Virus record (IMG/VR): IMGVR_UViG_3300027987_000212 | Coordinates: 1-64,000 of that record | Strand: one strand, 5' to 3' | DNA from: a virus | Length of the DNA: 64,000 nucleotides | Shown here: positions 16,406-22,912 of the stretch, piece by piece | Layout of the letters: every line of letters begins with the position of its first letter | Position numbering within the stretch: the first letter of the stretch is position 1 | Made by a program: the position numbers and the translations under genes | The notes under the pieces: generated by a model | Told to the model about the DNA's origin: nothing | Seen by the model: the letters and a program-made list of their open reading frames with translations, nothing else | Database searches by the model: none

Positions 16406-19400
16406 TCAGTAATGATACCCCGGCACACCCTTGAGGTGGCCTAGTCCTGGTTTGCCGCTGTCTTTGCCTGTGTACCCGAACTCGGCGCCGTAGACCATGC
16501 CCGGTACCGGGTTGATTCCGTGCAAGTTGGTGCGCCCGCCCGTCGCAGCCGCCTCGAGTACGGTATCGCGCAAGTTCTTGTGCATCATCTTCGCCAGCCA
16601 GTCCTCTGTAGCATCGAGCGTCACCATGTTCACGCCCTTGAGTACTGGGGAGTGTTCTACAGGACGTTTGCCCTGGCTGACCAGGGTCTTGTTGAGGGCG
16701 CGCAGTCCCGGGGCGTTCGTGAAGATGCCCTTGACTAGTTCGCTGTCGCCCGGGTCCCGCACTTTCGTCACCTGCCCCATGGCGGCGACTACCGTCTCGA
16801 CATGCTGTCGTCGCATGTCTGTGCCCTTGGCCCCGCCGTAGATGCGGTGCAGCTCGTCCGTCAGGAAGTTCTGCACCTTTTCCATGTTGCCCGTCGCTTG
16901 GTACAGCCGGTGTGGGTTGAGGTTGGTTCGGTTTGGGTCGCTCAGGGGTTGGCCTGCCTCGACGCGCATCCCCACCTTCGGCGGCTGCCAGGGAACGAAG
17001 CCCGGGGCCTCTGCTGCTTTCGGTAGTAGTTCGTTCAGCGCGTTGCCCTTACGGTCGCGCCCCACGTGGTGCGTCTTGCCGCCAATCCAGACCTTCACGC
17101 CAGTCGAGTCCTTCTCGACCTTCTCGACCTTACCCGTAGTCCGGGCCAAGACCATCTCATCGGGGATGTTGTCAGGCAAATTGGTTAGCTGCTGCACACG
17201 TTCGAAAGCGTTAAGCAGCGACGAGTTGCCACCACGTACCCCGCCCGTGTGGAACGCCTTCAAGGTTAACTGCACGCTCCTCTCTCCCAAAGACTGAGCT
17301 GCTTGTATCCCCACATTCGTTCCCACCTCGTGTAACTGCCCACTCGGAGACAGACCCGCACACTTCTGGCATACCCCCGCATCGTGCTCACATTTGAGGG
17401 TGGAACGTACTACCGCCTTTCCGTGTTTCTTGGCTAGTCGCATCTGGTCGATGAGGTCGGGAGTGAGGGTAGTCCCGGCGGGTAGGTCTACGTTCTTGGC
17501 CTTGAAGGGCTGAGCGAGAATACGGTCATGGAGGACATTACTGGAGAGGGGTAGGGCCACCCCGCGATTCGTACCGCAATCAGGCCCTGCCACCACCATG
17601 TTCATGGCTGCTTGGACTAGCCCCTTGGAGAAGTACCCGGGCTCTTCTACCTCCTGCACCTTCTTGATGGAACCAGCGCGCGCACCATGCATCTGAGTCC
17701 AGTACCCGGCCACATCCAAACCCTCCGAGTACGAGCTAGTCACGGGGGTCTTGACGGGATTGCCTGCACCATCGTTGAGAACCATCGGCGCTAGTACCAT
17801 CTGCCGGTATTGGTCCACACTCGGCTTGACCCCGGCATGGAGCATGATGGCCAAGTTGGTGGGTTTGGTCTTCATCTTCTCGAGGTGCTCTTTGGTCATG
17901 CCCTCACTTGCTTCGGTCCACGCCTCGATGGTCCGTGCGTCCTTCTCCTTGCGTGACAAGGTAGTCTTCTCGACGGCCTTCACCATGGCCTGCGCTTTGT
18001 CGAGGTGCTTCTGGCGTACGGCGACGTCTGGTGTGAAATCGTCTAGACCAAGTGAATGAACTGGGACTGGGATGAAGTGGCGAGTCTCTTTGGCACGCTC
18101 GGCTGCTGCGATGACTTCGGGTGAGTTGTCCCCTCGCTTGACCACTGCGACAGCTCCCGAGGCAGCCCCATTGCCCAAGTCCTTGAGACGGTCTGCGGTA
18201 ACTGCAAACTCATCTCGGTGGTTCTTGGCAAGTCGCTCGAAGAGCTTGGTGATGCCGCCCTTGTCGATGACTTGGTCGTGCTTGGTGAGGATACCGTTAC
18301 GAAGTGGTTCGGGCACCGCTGCAGCTAGTAGAACACGCCCTGGAGTCGTGCGCACTCCACCGATGGTCGTGAGGTTGTTGACGGTGAGCTTGCCGGCCTT
18401 GACTGCCTCGAGTGCATCGCCCGGGGTCTTGTAGCTCCCCTTCTTCTCCCCGTCGATTCGAGAGAGCTTGTAGAGCCCTAGTGCGCTCTCGAGAGTGGGC
18501 GTGTACATGACCCCTCCGGAGGCCACGTTGTAGAGGTTGTTCGAGGGCCGCATTCGCTGCGCTTCTTCTACCGCCTCCCGCGAGATGGGGACGTACGCAC
18601 TCATGGCATCACCGTCGAAGTCGGCGTTGAAGCCACCCGTTACTAGGGGGTGAATTTGGATGGCCTTGCCGGGGGCTAGTCGAGGGGTGAAAGCCTGTAC
18701 CGAGTGGGCATGTAGCGCGGGGTCGCGCTTGAGTAGTACTGGCCTCTCTTTGAAGACACTCTCTAGTGCGCGCCACACGGCCGGCGTCTTCTTGTCTACT
18801 AGCTCACGGGCCGATAAGGCGGTCGGGGCCGCCCCATTTGCGACTAGCTTCTCCACGACAAAAGGCTTGTACATCGTGAGCGCCTGCTCGTGGGGTAGCC
18901 CAACTTCGTCTAGCCCAAGTGCGGGTTCGGGCACGATGACGGAACGCATCGTGAGGTCTTGCTTGCGGTTGAGCAACACCTTCTGGAGGTACCCCTTCTT
19001 CGGTGAAGAGCTAGTTGCGGTTGAGCCTGCAATCTGTGCAAGGAGGCCTTGCGGCATCGAACCACCAACCACACTGCGTGGGTCCTTGCTGGGGGTGTGC
19101 ACCCCTTGGATGGCAGCCACGGCATCGTACATGCTAGCGCGGAAGTCCTTCTTGCGCTGGTCCGTGAGCTGGTCGAGCAGCGAGGGTGGGTTCTCTGCCA
19201 CCATACTGCCCAAGTCGCTGTACAGGCGATTGACATCCTCCCACTTGGCAGAGCCGTCGGGGAGTAGCGATGGCGTGCGCATGATGGGTGGCATCACCGG
19301 GATGTTCTGCAGCGTGTACGCCTCGACTGGCTTGAGCCCCGTCTCCTTGAGCGCGCGCAGGTACTTCACCTTCTTGATGAGCGCGTCCATCGCCGGTGGG

Positions 19401-22400: not shown

Positions 22401-22912
22401 GTCCTCAGCAAGTGGTAGATGGGGATACGCTCCGTCTTGCCCCGAGACATCACAAACTCTTTGCTTTCGGGGTCGAACGTAACCCGCACGTTGCGGGTCA
22501 CTGGCGTATTGAAGTGCGACTCGAGCTTACCGTTAGCTCGACGTCGTGTGTAGACACCTGGCATCAACTGCCACTGGTTGTCCACCTGCCACTCTTGCCC
22601 GCCCATGATGTAGCTGTGCCGACGCGTGATGACAGGGATGTCGGCAAGACGAATCTGCTGCTTGTCGACTACCTTACCGTCGTTGCTCTTCAAGACGATA
22701 GTACCCGTGACCGGTACACTCCAACTACGCCCTTCTACCTTTGCTTGATGCTGCCCTTGCACATCATCCGCCAGCGTATTGGTGTCGGGTACATGCAAAT
22801 CCTCCAACTCCAGTGACTGGAGCCCACCCACCATGGGGAACGCCGCCCGAATTCCTTCGAGCGTCTTGTTGTTCAAGTCCTGTTGAGCCTTCGAGTAGTC
22901 CAGGTATGCCAC
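16406..22912 (-). CDS. fused beta-beta' multisubunit-type RNA polymerase, 2168 aa
   Basis: One chain with both large-subunit halves. Beta part (about 1-1010): FLDPVRTPEN near 385, FFNVTTNLIPFLSTV near 486, YNFEDGVVISRS at 638-649, ADKLAGRYGNKGVV at 776-789, PSGVPGRMNTGQVLE at 813-827. Beta' part (about 1050-2168): LFDPRLTGG near 1060, PVLLKRDPALHAHSVQAFTP at 1391-1410, catalytic NADFDGD at 1429-1435, DCGT at 1778-1781, CEHDAGVCQKC at 1841-1851, trigger-loop GIQAAQSLGERSVQLTLKAF at 1868-1887. The four Cys (1779, 1841, 1848, 1851) match the second zinc site of bacterial beta'. The N-terminal beta' zinc ribbon is absent. Shorter than E. coli beta plus beta' (about 2750). GTG start. First gene of a virion operon. 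Confidence 0.95.
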   Translation of the reverse strand: MAYLDYSKAQQDLNNKTLEGIRAAFPMVGGLQSLELEDLHVPDTNTLADDVQGQHQAKVEGRSWSVPVTGTIVLKSNDGKVVDKQQIRLADIPVITRRHSYIMGGQEWQVDNQWQLMPGVYTRRRANGKLESHFNTPVTRNVRVTFDPESKEFVMSRGKTERIPIYHLLRTLGVDDDSLEKVWGKDILQANKGASHASTALERFYRADRRTAPPNQEEAAKYFVQKMGEVQLRPEVTAKTLGKAATSVDGDTFLRATKRMLDVQAGAPEDDRDSLEFKVLRSTGDYIQDFYNNSVNKRSIRKRVMGKLSRATSVREVLKYDMFNRPIQQAFSRNAAARQADQINPVEMLASASQTTSMGSGGIQSDEELKTMVGLKLVNPSHLGFLDPVRTPENDKTGVTLRMPLGVTKVGDEPRITLFNVKSNKYELVNPRVFADSVVAMPDQVEWKRGKPSFLGKTVKASAKGNELTDVPANSVQYIARHPSQFFNVTTNLIPFLSTVSGNRATYADQHIEQSISLKRREAPLVQVATGSEDDSSKSWEQVIGRNTSHVALKGGKVTAVTPNYIEVRAADGSVSKVSLYNHYPLNDKKSMLHSTPTVKVGDAVAAGQHIADTNFTQKGELALGTNLRVAYIPYKGYNFEDGVVISRSAAERLASEHLHKPTTQLSPDAITAPSKFQMHHPEAYTKTQYSKLDEGGVVRVGQKVDPGDPLVLAANPYRFKNRLEGNAMRKVLLGVHTNSSLTWDGDQPGEVVDVYRGKKGEVRVHVKSVEPMQVADKLAGRYGNKGVVTLIVDDDKMPRTADGKPIDVALNPSGVPGRMNTGQVLETAASKIARKTGKPYVVDSFERQSLVEKVKSDLKKHGLTDQEELFDPETGLKMGKALVGEQHILKLVHQVDKKTAARSGMGGEGEGYEQSTLLPSQGGKSGGQSMGPYGLVTLLTHGAKANIREMQTFKSEGPRELLEPSRPYPSQHINAWTAIVEGRPLPVPKPTFSYRKFEDMLRGAGINLEKKGNEIQLTPLTDKQVLEMSSGKLVHPGDHTYSKVDPNTGTLKPKPGGLFDPRLTGGLGGKKWTHIELPEPVVNPVFEVPVRKLLGLTEEDYRGVATGERAWKDGKFVPLDTEGSVTGGLAFRKMLEGIDVEKDLAQHEKALAAMTVPEQQYTAKGKKKGNPPAMDALIKKVKYLRALKETGLKPVEAYTLQNIPVMPPIMRTPSLLPDGSAKWEDVNRLYSDLGSMVAENPPSLLDQLTDQRKKDFRASMYDAVAAIQGVHTPSKDPRSVVGGSMPQGLLAQIAGSTATSSSPKKGYLQKVLLNRKQDLTMRSVIVPEPALGLDEVGLPHEQALTMYKPFVVEKLVANGAAPTALSARELVDKKTPAVWRALESVFKERPVLLKRDPALHAHSVQAFTPRLAPGKAIQIHPLVTGGFNADFDGDAMSAYVPISREAVEEAQRMRPSNNLYNVASGGVMYTPTLESALGLYKLSRIDGEKKGSYKTPGDALEAVKAGKLTVNNLTTIGGVRTTPGRVLLAAAVPEPLRNGILTKHDQVIDKGGITKLFERLAKNHRDEFAVTADRLKDLGNGAASGAVAVVKRGDNSPEVIAAAERAKETRHFIPVPVHSLGLDDFTPDVAVRQKHLDKAQAMVKAVEKTTLSRKEKDARTIEAWTEASEGMTKEHLEKMKTKPTNLAIMLHAGVKPSVDQYRQMVLAPMVLNDGAGNPVKTPVTSSYSEGLDVAGYWTQMHGARAGSIKKVQEVEEPGYFSKGLVQAAMNMVVAGPDCGTNRGVALPLSSNVLHDRILAQPFKAKNVDLPAGTTLTPDLIDQMRLAKKHGKAVVRSTLKCEHDAGVCQKCAGLSPSGQLHEVGTNVGIQAAQSLGERSVQLTLKAFHTGGVRGGNSSLLNAFERVQQLTNLPDNIPDEMVLARTTGKVEKVEKDSTGVKVWIGGKTHHVGRDRKGNALNELLPKAAEAPGFVPWQPPKVGMRVEAGQPLSDPNRTNLNPHRLYQATGNMEKVQNFLTDELHRIYGGAKGTDMRRQHVETVVAAMGQVTKVRDPGDSELVKGIFTNAPGLRALNKTLVSQGKRPVEHSPVLKGVNMVTLDATEDWLAKMMHKNLRDTVLEAAATGGRTNLHGINPVPGMVYGAEFGYTGKDSGKPGLGHLKGVPGYHY

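Follow-up and report, generated by a model that had tools for sequence, protein, structure and literature searches.

A single-chain, bacterial-style RNA polymerase with a dedicated sigma gene and a promoter-like signal in a large family of tailed phages

Multisubunit-type RNA polymerases of phages

Several groups of bacteriophages encode RNA polymerases (RNAPs) of the multisubunit type, and a further variant is described here from a 64,000-nucleotide stretch of viral DNA (positions 1 to 64,000 of IMG/VR record IMGVR_UViG_3300027987_000212; hereafter the window), in which bacterial-like beta and beta' subunits form one chain. Phage multisubunit RNAPs that can be aligned with cellular ones have already been described in the multi-subunit RNAP-encoding Caudovirales (mReC) (Weinheimer and Aylward 2020, PMC7481178). 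That paper names a fusion for crAssphage only and none within mReC; the mReC capsids detected all belong to PF07068, a capsid having been scored in only 8 of the 97 contigs (PMC7481178). The virion and non-virion RNAPs (vRNAP and nvRNAP) of phiKZ and AR9 are two-barrel enzymes without alpha, present in two copies and split into several diverged chains (PMC7598289, PMC9209446). The AR9 promoter factor gp226 has a sigma-like fold but no sequence similarity to sigma factors. One-chain two-barrel enzymes are represented by crAss-like gp66, YonO and gp64/gp96 of P23-45 (PMC10770324). Cobetia phage Carin-5 and Yersinia phage YerA41 encode bacterial-type beta and beta' as separate chains on a distant branch, and in Carin-5 a sigma gene adjoins that of beta'.

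The enzyme of the window is a real, well-conserved and under-described variant of this type. Like the mReC polymerases, it comes from IMG/VR, and its beta and beta' parts can be aligned with cellular RNAP and cluster apart from their bacterial homologues, in trees that are unrooted and hold few bacterial phyla. Unlike in mReC, no PF07068 capsid was found in the whole record of 185,327 bases or in 16 relatives, with a positive control (L407), and a TerL of PF03237, an mReC marker, was not found in the record. Since PF07068 was tested for and is absent, the enzyme is not filed as mReC; some overlap is possible, as most mReC contigs carry no scored capsid and the mReC1-3 sequences were outside the comparison. 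The control L407 (236-kb contig IMGVR_UViG_3300022697_000186) is a jumbo phage contig in which beta and beta' are encoded by two genes; it has a Gp23 capsid of the T4 type and resembles the published mReC description.

With the phiKZ and AR9 enzymes the polymerase shares the two barrels and the lack of alpha, but it is a single open reading frame (ORF) and the only two-barrel RNAP frame (PF00623) in the record, which may be incomplete. Unlike the crAss, YonO and P23-45 enzymes, it has a full bacterial-type beta and beta'; YonO and crAss polymerases are too diverged for cellular profiles, whereas this chain matches them strongly (Pfam E 7e-59 and 8e-26). An earlier note on this DNA, drawn from its letters alone, had set the chain apart from the split phiKZ kind and from the YonO and crAss kinds, and this distinction stands. 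Its picture was incomplete, as it did not include the close relatives in the cultured phages Arash, D69, D181 and D148 or the mReC precedent. Apart from the mReC paper, the literature search turned up nothing on a phage family with fused beta and beta', although papers outside that search may exist. What is new here is the dedicated sigma factor together with a promoter-like signal.

A single chain with an intact active site

The polymerase is encoded by one uninterrupted frame, with the following features (window positions, all on the minus strand):

16406..22912, minus: fused beta-beta' RNA polymerase, 2168 aa, GTG start, no internal stop
19883..22912, minus: beta moiety, residues 1-1010 (DPBB-B, that is, the double-psi beta-barrel of beta; flap; rifampicin-pocket region), the beta C-terminus reaching residue 1010 in the alignment to E. 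coli beta
16409..19882, minus: beta' moiety, residues 1011-2168, with the N-terminal zinc ribbon deleted in the alignment
20546..20572, minus: GRYGNKGVV, the DPBB-B catalytic lysine motif, residues 781-789; K778 and K786 invariant in 68/68 relatives
18608..18628, minus: NADFDGD, the catalytic Mg-binding loop, residues 1429-1435; Asp triad invariant in 68/68
17600..17707, minus: bridge-helix region, residues ~1736-1771, by alignment to E. coli beta'
17360..17578, minus: second beta' zinc site, Cys 1779/1841/1848/1851, kept in 64-66 of 68 relatives
17228..17308, minus: trigger-loop region with His1888, residues ~1869-1895, by alignment and conservation

Pfam places Rpb2 domain 6 at residues 574-904 (E 7e-59), Rpb1 domain 2 at 1317-1454 (E 8e-26) and Rpb1 domain 5 at 1731-2057 (E 5e-19), in the correct Rpb2/Rpb1 order. 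Frame and domains agree with the intact bacterial-like fusion that the earlier note had read here, and the landmarks it had picked out (GRYGNKGVV, GVPGRMNTGQVLE, NADFDGD, the four zinc-site cysteines and a full trigger loop) are all found in the chain. Among PDB chains, those of Thermus beta' come closest in sequence (E 4e-104), and identity to E. coli is 31% for either half.

Conservation was assessed in 68 full-length relatives whose identity to the window protein is 35-61%. The DxDxD aspartates, Lys778, Lys786 and Arg819 of beta, and Arg1396 and His1888 of beta' are identical in every one of them, so that DxDxD on DPBB-A and two lysines on DPBB-B, the signature of multisubunit-type two-barrel RNAPs, occur throughout. 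Such invariance at this divergence indicates that the active site is maintained by selection. Chance or decay is excluded, and the catalytic Asp triad, whose disruption the earlier note had considered, is whole.

The junction between the two parts can be read from the alignment. The end of E. coli beta (...GINIELEDE) faces ...GINLE-KKGN-EIQLTPLTD... in the phage chain, with EIQLTPL opposite IKIALASP, a stretch around position 20 of E. coli beta'. Beta thus passes into beta' at about residue 1010 with almost no linker, and this junction recurs in all eleven fused members aligned. The zinc ribbon of the beta' N-terminus, already reported as lacking, is a clean in-place deletion (E. coli residues ~60-103); the boundaries had to be corrected, however, as the chain keeps the N-terminal part of beta' starting at about position 20 of the E. 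coli subunit. The beta' clamp-helix hairpin, the docking site of sigma region 2, is preserved in length but not in sequence, and the flap retains a tip helix.

Structure prediction gives the same picture. AlphaFold2 models of the two halves, built from 41-sequence alignments, reach a predicted local distance difference test (pLDDT) score of 82.0 and 83.5. Foldseek against the PDB matches them to bacterial beta' with template modelling (TM) scores of 0.66-0.74 and to bacterial beta with 0.73-0.79 (E below 1e-55), and the 50 best matches listed for each half are all chains of bacterial multisubunit RNAPs. Models, Foldseek and alignment together place the bridge helix, the trigger loop and the overall beta and beta' folds. 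In the rifampicin pocket, contact residues differ from E. coli by H526S, R529Q, S531T, L533M and I572T, and no family member among the 68 relatives has His at position 526. Because these contacts are altered and His526 is missing from the family, the phage enzyme should be resistant to rifampicin.

A family of fused enzymes

Three pattern scans of IMG/VR, whose totals may overlap and are not additive, gave at least 423, at least 508 and at least 324 relatives confirmed by tblastn. In 116 of 120 non-truncated distinct IMG/VR loci (duplicates removed among those fetched) the enzyme is one ORF; in the other four it is broken in a frameshift-like manner. The group is a large one of mostly uncultured tailed phages with a single-chain, bacterial-style RNAP. 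No relative was found in GTDB genome contigs scanned with family-specific patterns, and the close match to a cellular fused rpoBC for which the earlier note had allowed did not appear.

The same note had proposed a phylogeny of the two halves. In separate beta and beta' trees, the family together with Arash and D69 stands apart from 11 bacterial references, with a Shimodaira-Hasegawa-like approximate likelihood ratio test (SH-aLRT) support of 100. The trees are unrooted, some phage branches are long, and the references cover few bacterial phyla and no archaea, a second scan of genome contigs having yielded Proteobacteria alone; the age of the split is outside their reach. The window protein adjoins the same relative (L006) in both trees, which indicates that the beta and beta' halves share a history. 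Four records labelled as phages (Staphylococcus SA 1306 Kay, Enterococcus Efs, MT836236 and AGRM01000005) resemble host contigs; use of the first three was confined to the bacterial reference set. PHROGs 24349 and 25354, the best PHROG matches, are similar in length to unfused rpoB and rpoC of bacteria and were not counted among the phage relatives.

The nearest cultured relatives, in the same clade, are Salmonella phage Arash (OQ632216; gp206 and gp216) and Vibrio phages D69, D181 and D148. In all four, beta is joined to the N-terminal part of beta'; in Arash and D69 this is at the junction described above, and both phages have sigma2 homologues (see below); Arash also has the portal gene upstream and a GGTATAAG motif. 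These four cultured phages differ from the window in that the C-terminal part of beta' (~607 aa) is a separate gene. The break thus follows the DPBB domain, the same position as in phiKZ-type and cyanobacterial beta' (PMC7598289). No paper on phage Arash was found in the literature search.

Mobile elements occur within some of these genes. In D181, the RNAP gene is interrupted by a group I intron (L005:13485-13765; RF00028, E 1e-25), accompanied by a homing endonuclease gene. In-frame inteins interrupt the fused RNAP of L076 (RNAP ORF 9971-19747), L032, L084 and L086, with LAGLIDADG, Hom_end or Intein_splicing matches and classic Cys...HN/Ser-Thr-Cys borders; they are probable in L269, L274, L275 and L354, judged by ORF length only. 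The insertion points are active-site positions (GNKG/C, NADFDGD/S, KAFH/C and RTPE/C), and L076 holds three inteins.

Sigma factors and a promoter-like motif

The record contains two sigma-70 family genes, both outside the window (record positions):

91694-92476, minus: sigma2, 260 aa; Sigma70_r3 E 8e-11, region 4 weak
176073-176615, minus: sigma1, FliA-like, 180 aa; PDB E 1e-14

The earlier statement that no alpha, omega or sigma gene is recognised in the window is literally correct for sigma, but the absence of sigma that it implied does not hold for the record. Neither alpha (PF01193) nor omega (PF01192) was found by Pfam in the 185 kb, so the alpha and omega of a cellular alpha2-beta-beta'-omega enzyme are not seen alongside the fused chain.

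The sigma2 gene lies within the minus-strand virion block. All 28 of its PDB matches are sigma factors, and it has recognisable conserved sigma-70 regions, region 2 being weakly matched in the relatives; it thereby differs from AR9 gp226. Of 24 family records searched, 22 contain sigma2, Arash and D69 among them, and a search of 50,697 phage records returned Arash as the sole match. A strong PF04542 match of the sigma1 kind is rare among the 24 relatives.

In a motif search made de novo, with no prior assumption, GGGATAAG showed the strongest enrichment of all upstream 8-mers in this genome: it is present in 7 regions, where 0.08 would be expected, and 0/60 shuffles reach its score. Three sites fall in the window, and ten more of this type lie elsewhere in the genome:

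1057..1064, plus: GGGATAAG promoter-like motif
5200..5207, plus: GGGATAAG promoter-like motif, 44 nt before the ORF at 5243
22965..22972, plus: GGGATAAG promoter-like motif between the RNAP gene and the divergent genes, pointing away from RNAP

The same 8-mer ranks first upstream in G006 and G001, less strongly (1/60 shuffles reaches the score), and is the best 8-mer before ribosome-binding sites both in this genome and in G004. Taking all occurrences on either strand in these four closest phages, 30 of 38 sites have a ribosome-binding site and a start codon within 60 nt (background 19%, p 3e-15), and 19 of the 38 have CAA placed at exactly -19 (p 3e-26). TGGA-like bases follow at +13 to +16 of the pooled sites. 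The signal takes the bipartite form GCAAAA-N14-GG[G/T]ATAAG-N5-TGGAG before genes, and its spacing and shape resemble those of promoters read by group-3 sigma factors. In the more distant G008 and in Arash, GGTATAAG is the top motif, with a CAA block at -20/-19 in 8 of 19 pooled sites, mainly those of G008. The sigma2 gene is itself preceded by a motif site, at a distance of 28 nt. Most sites of this genome are in the plus-strand arm, at 150-182 kb and 1-5 kb, and not before virion operons.

Proposed mechanism

Starting from the observed chain, active site, family, synteny, sigma gene and motif, the best explanation, to which we give a probability of about two in three, is a single-chain core without alpha and omega that works with a phage sigma factor at phage promoters. 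The chain would form a complete and catalytically competent RNAP core. The C-terminus of beta is joined to the N-terminus of beta', two ends that are expected to lie close together, so that the tether could replace the assembly role of the absent alpha dimer. The sigma-docking surfaces (beta' clamp helices and beta flap) are preserved in outline, and the 260-aa sigma2 would direct the core to phage promoters made up of GCAAAA, a gap of about 14 nt and GGGATAAG; transcription would probably start about 6 nt downstream, near TGGA. Host transcription would be bypassed for part of the phage genome, a defined gene class, and rifampicin should not inhibit this synthesis. We infer that the core is independent of alpha and omega, that it pairs with sigma2 and that the motif is its promoter. 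The fused enzyme, its own sigma factor and the shared promoter-like signal together suggest a stripped-down transcription system separate from that of the host.

Several points weigh against this explanation. The biochemistry of the enzyme is inferred throughout. Analogues of alpha and omega may be too diverged for Pfam, or host subunits may serve. The 24 genomes searched for sigma2 had been selected for carrying the RNAP, so that co-occurrence marks sigma2 as a core gene of the group rather than a physical partner, and the FliA-like sigma1 is a second sigma in the same genome. The motif might instead be recognised by host RNAP, carrying sigma2 or one of the host's own sigma factors, and the GATAA within it is also part of the -10 element of FliA. 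Among the genomes, G001, G004 and some G006 sites show a clear -35-like block, which is weaker in this genome, and a de novo search of the distant G012 and of part of D69 gave nothing clear.

Gene neighbourhood and alternative explanations

The genes around the polymerase bear on when it would act (window positions):

27082..29067, minus: portal-family gene, 661 aa, the next upstream gene on the RNAP strand; a divergent four-gene cassette intervenes
15155..16405, minus: 416-aa gene directly downstream of RNAP in the same operon; downstream in 61 loci, median gap 4 nt
14506..15153, minus: 215-aa conserved operon gene, 26 loci
11774..14497, minus: 907-aa conserved operon gene, no function assigned; downstream of RNAP in 69 loci

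A portal homologue was matched upstream of the RNAP gene, on the same strand, in 72 of 84 family loci; its identity comes from phrog_16240 matches in four relatives (E 9e-8 to 3e-4) and from the portal annotation of the Arash homologue. The 416-aa gene is matched in 63 and the 907-aa gene in 70 of the 84 loci. Of the operon with spike and virion-like proteins that had been proposed, the virion neighbourhood is borne out by the portal, but the spike assignment at 15155-16405 is not confirmed, no Pfam, PHROG or PDB match having been found for this gene. The divergent cassette (23200-26972, plus), which includes an AAA ATPase (phrog_1297), separates portal from RNAP and is present in about 24-28 of the 84 loci.

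Across the family, the RNAP gene thus stands between portal and tail-type genes. One possibility is a virion RNAP, on the lines of the phiKZ vRNAP or an N4-like strategy: the packaged chain would leave the virion along with the DNA and, together with sigma2, read the early arm from GGGATAAG promoters before there is any product made by the host. The gene order, the single two-barrel frame, the position of sigma2 in the minus-strand virion block and the concentration of motif sites on an apparently early plus-strand arm of small genes, away from the minus-strand virion genes, make packaging attractive. The gene order may, however, also reflect late expression without packaging, and the early status of the arm is deduced from small ORFs of no assigned function alone. 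Packaging, which the earlier note had named beside late production, is plausible, and this model is held at somewhat less than even odds.

Rated equally is a non-virion model, in which host RNAP reads the early genes, including those of RNAP and sigma2, and the phage enzyme then transcribes middle or late genes. Phages of similar size without a nucleus commonly begin with host RNAP, and the dedicated sigma fits such a course; the motif, however, was not found before the virion operons here, and the RNAP gene lies in a virion-type operon, not in the plus-strand arm. A fuller version of the packaging model is put forward tentatively, at odds of hardly better than one in three: a self-contained virion module of single-chain core and sigma, ejected with the DNA in a widespread phage group, would fire the early genes from GCAAAA-N14-GG[G/T]ATAAG with no host transcription subunit.

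A hybrid enzyme, in which the phage chain would simply stand in for the host core and bind alpha, omega and sigma of the host, is unlikely. Jumbo-phage cores function without alpha (PMC7598289), and a phage sigma is conserved in 22 of the 24 genomes. The outline of the sigma-docking surfaces and flap would suit such a hybrid, as would the failure to find alpha and omega in the phage record. Host contamination or an rpoB-rpoC assembly chimera, which fused rpoBC genes in Helicobacter and Wolbachia might bring to mind, is rejected as having next to no chance of being correct: the record is that of a phage with TerL (phrog_675, E 7e-56), tail sheath and portal, the same fusion is found as one ORF in more than 100 independent loci, identity to E. 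coli is 31%, GTDB contigs scanned with family-specific patterns gave no match, and both halves lie outside the sampled bacteria with 99-100% support. The Helicobacter and Wolbachia proteins, in which beta and beta' also form one chain, are cellular enzymes with zinc ribbon, alpha and omega, and differ in this from the phage family.

Significance

If the proposed mechanism is right, one core chain and one sigma factor would make up the smallest known bacterial-style transcription machine. Working without alpha, omega and the beta' N-terminal zinc ribbon, it would be a natural test of which RNAP assembly parts are dispensable, and it might offer an orthogonal, rifampicin-resistant expression system. 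The family, with at least 324 to at least 508 tblastn-confirmed matches per scan, is a large natural alignment of the fused enzyme. In the cultured phages Arash and D69, packaging, promoter use and drug resistance are directly testable. The separation of the fused clade from the capsid-marked mReC phages also bears on how often phages have captured an RNAP.

Other genes of the record

In addition to TerL, the record encodes a tail-sheath-like protein, PolA, DnaB, a UvsX-like recombinase and a ligase. A 616-aa protein at record 133615-135465 (minus; L091:9615-11465) combines an N-terminal ferritin-like domain (PF00210, E 2e-8) with a glycine-zipper stretch.

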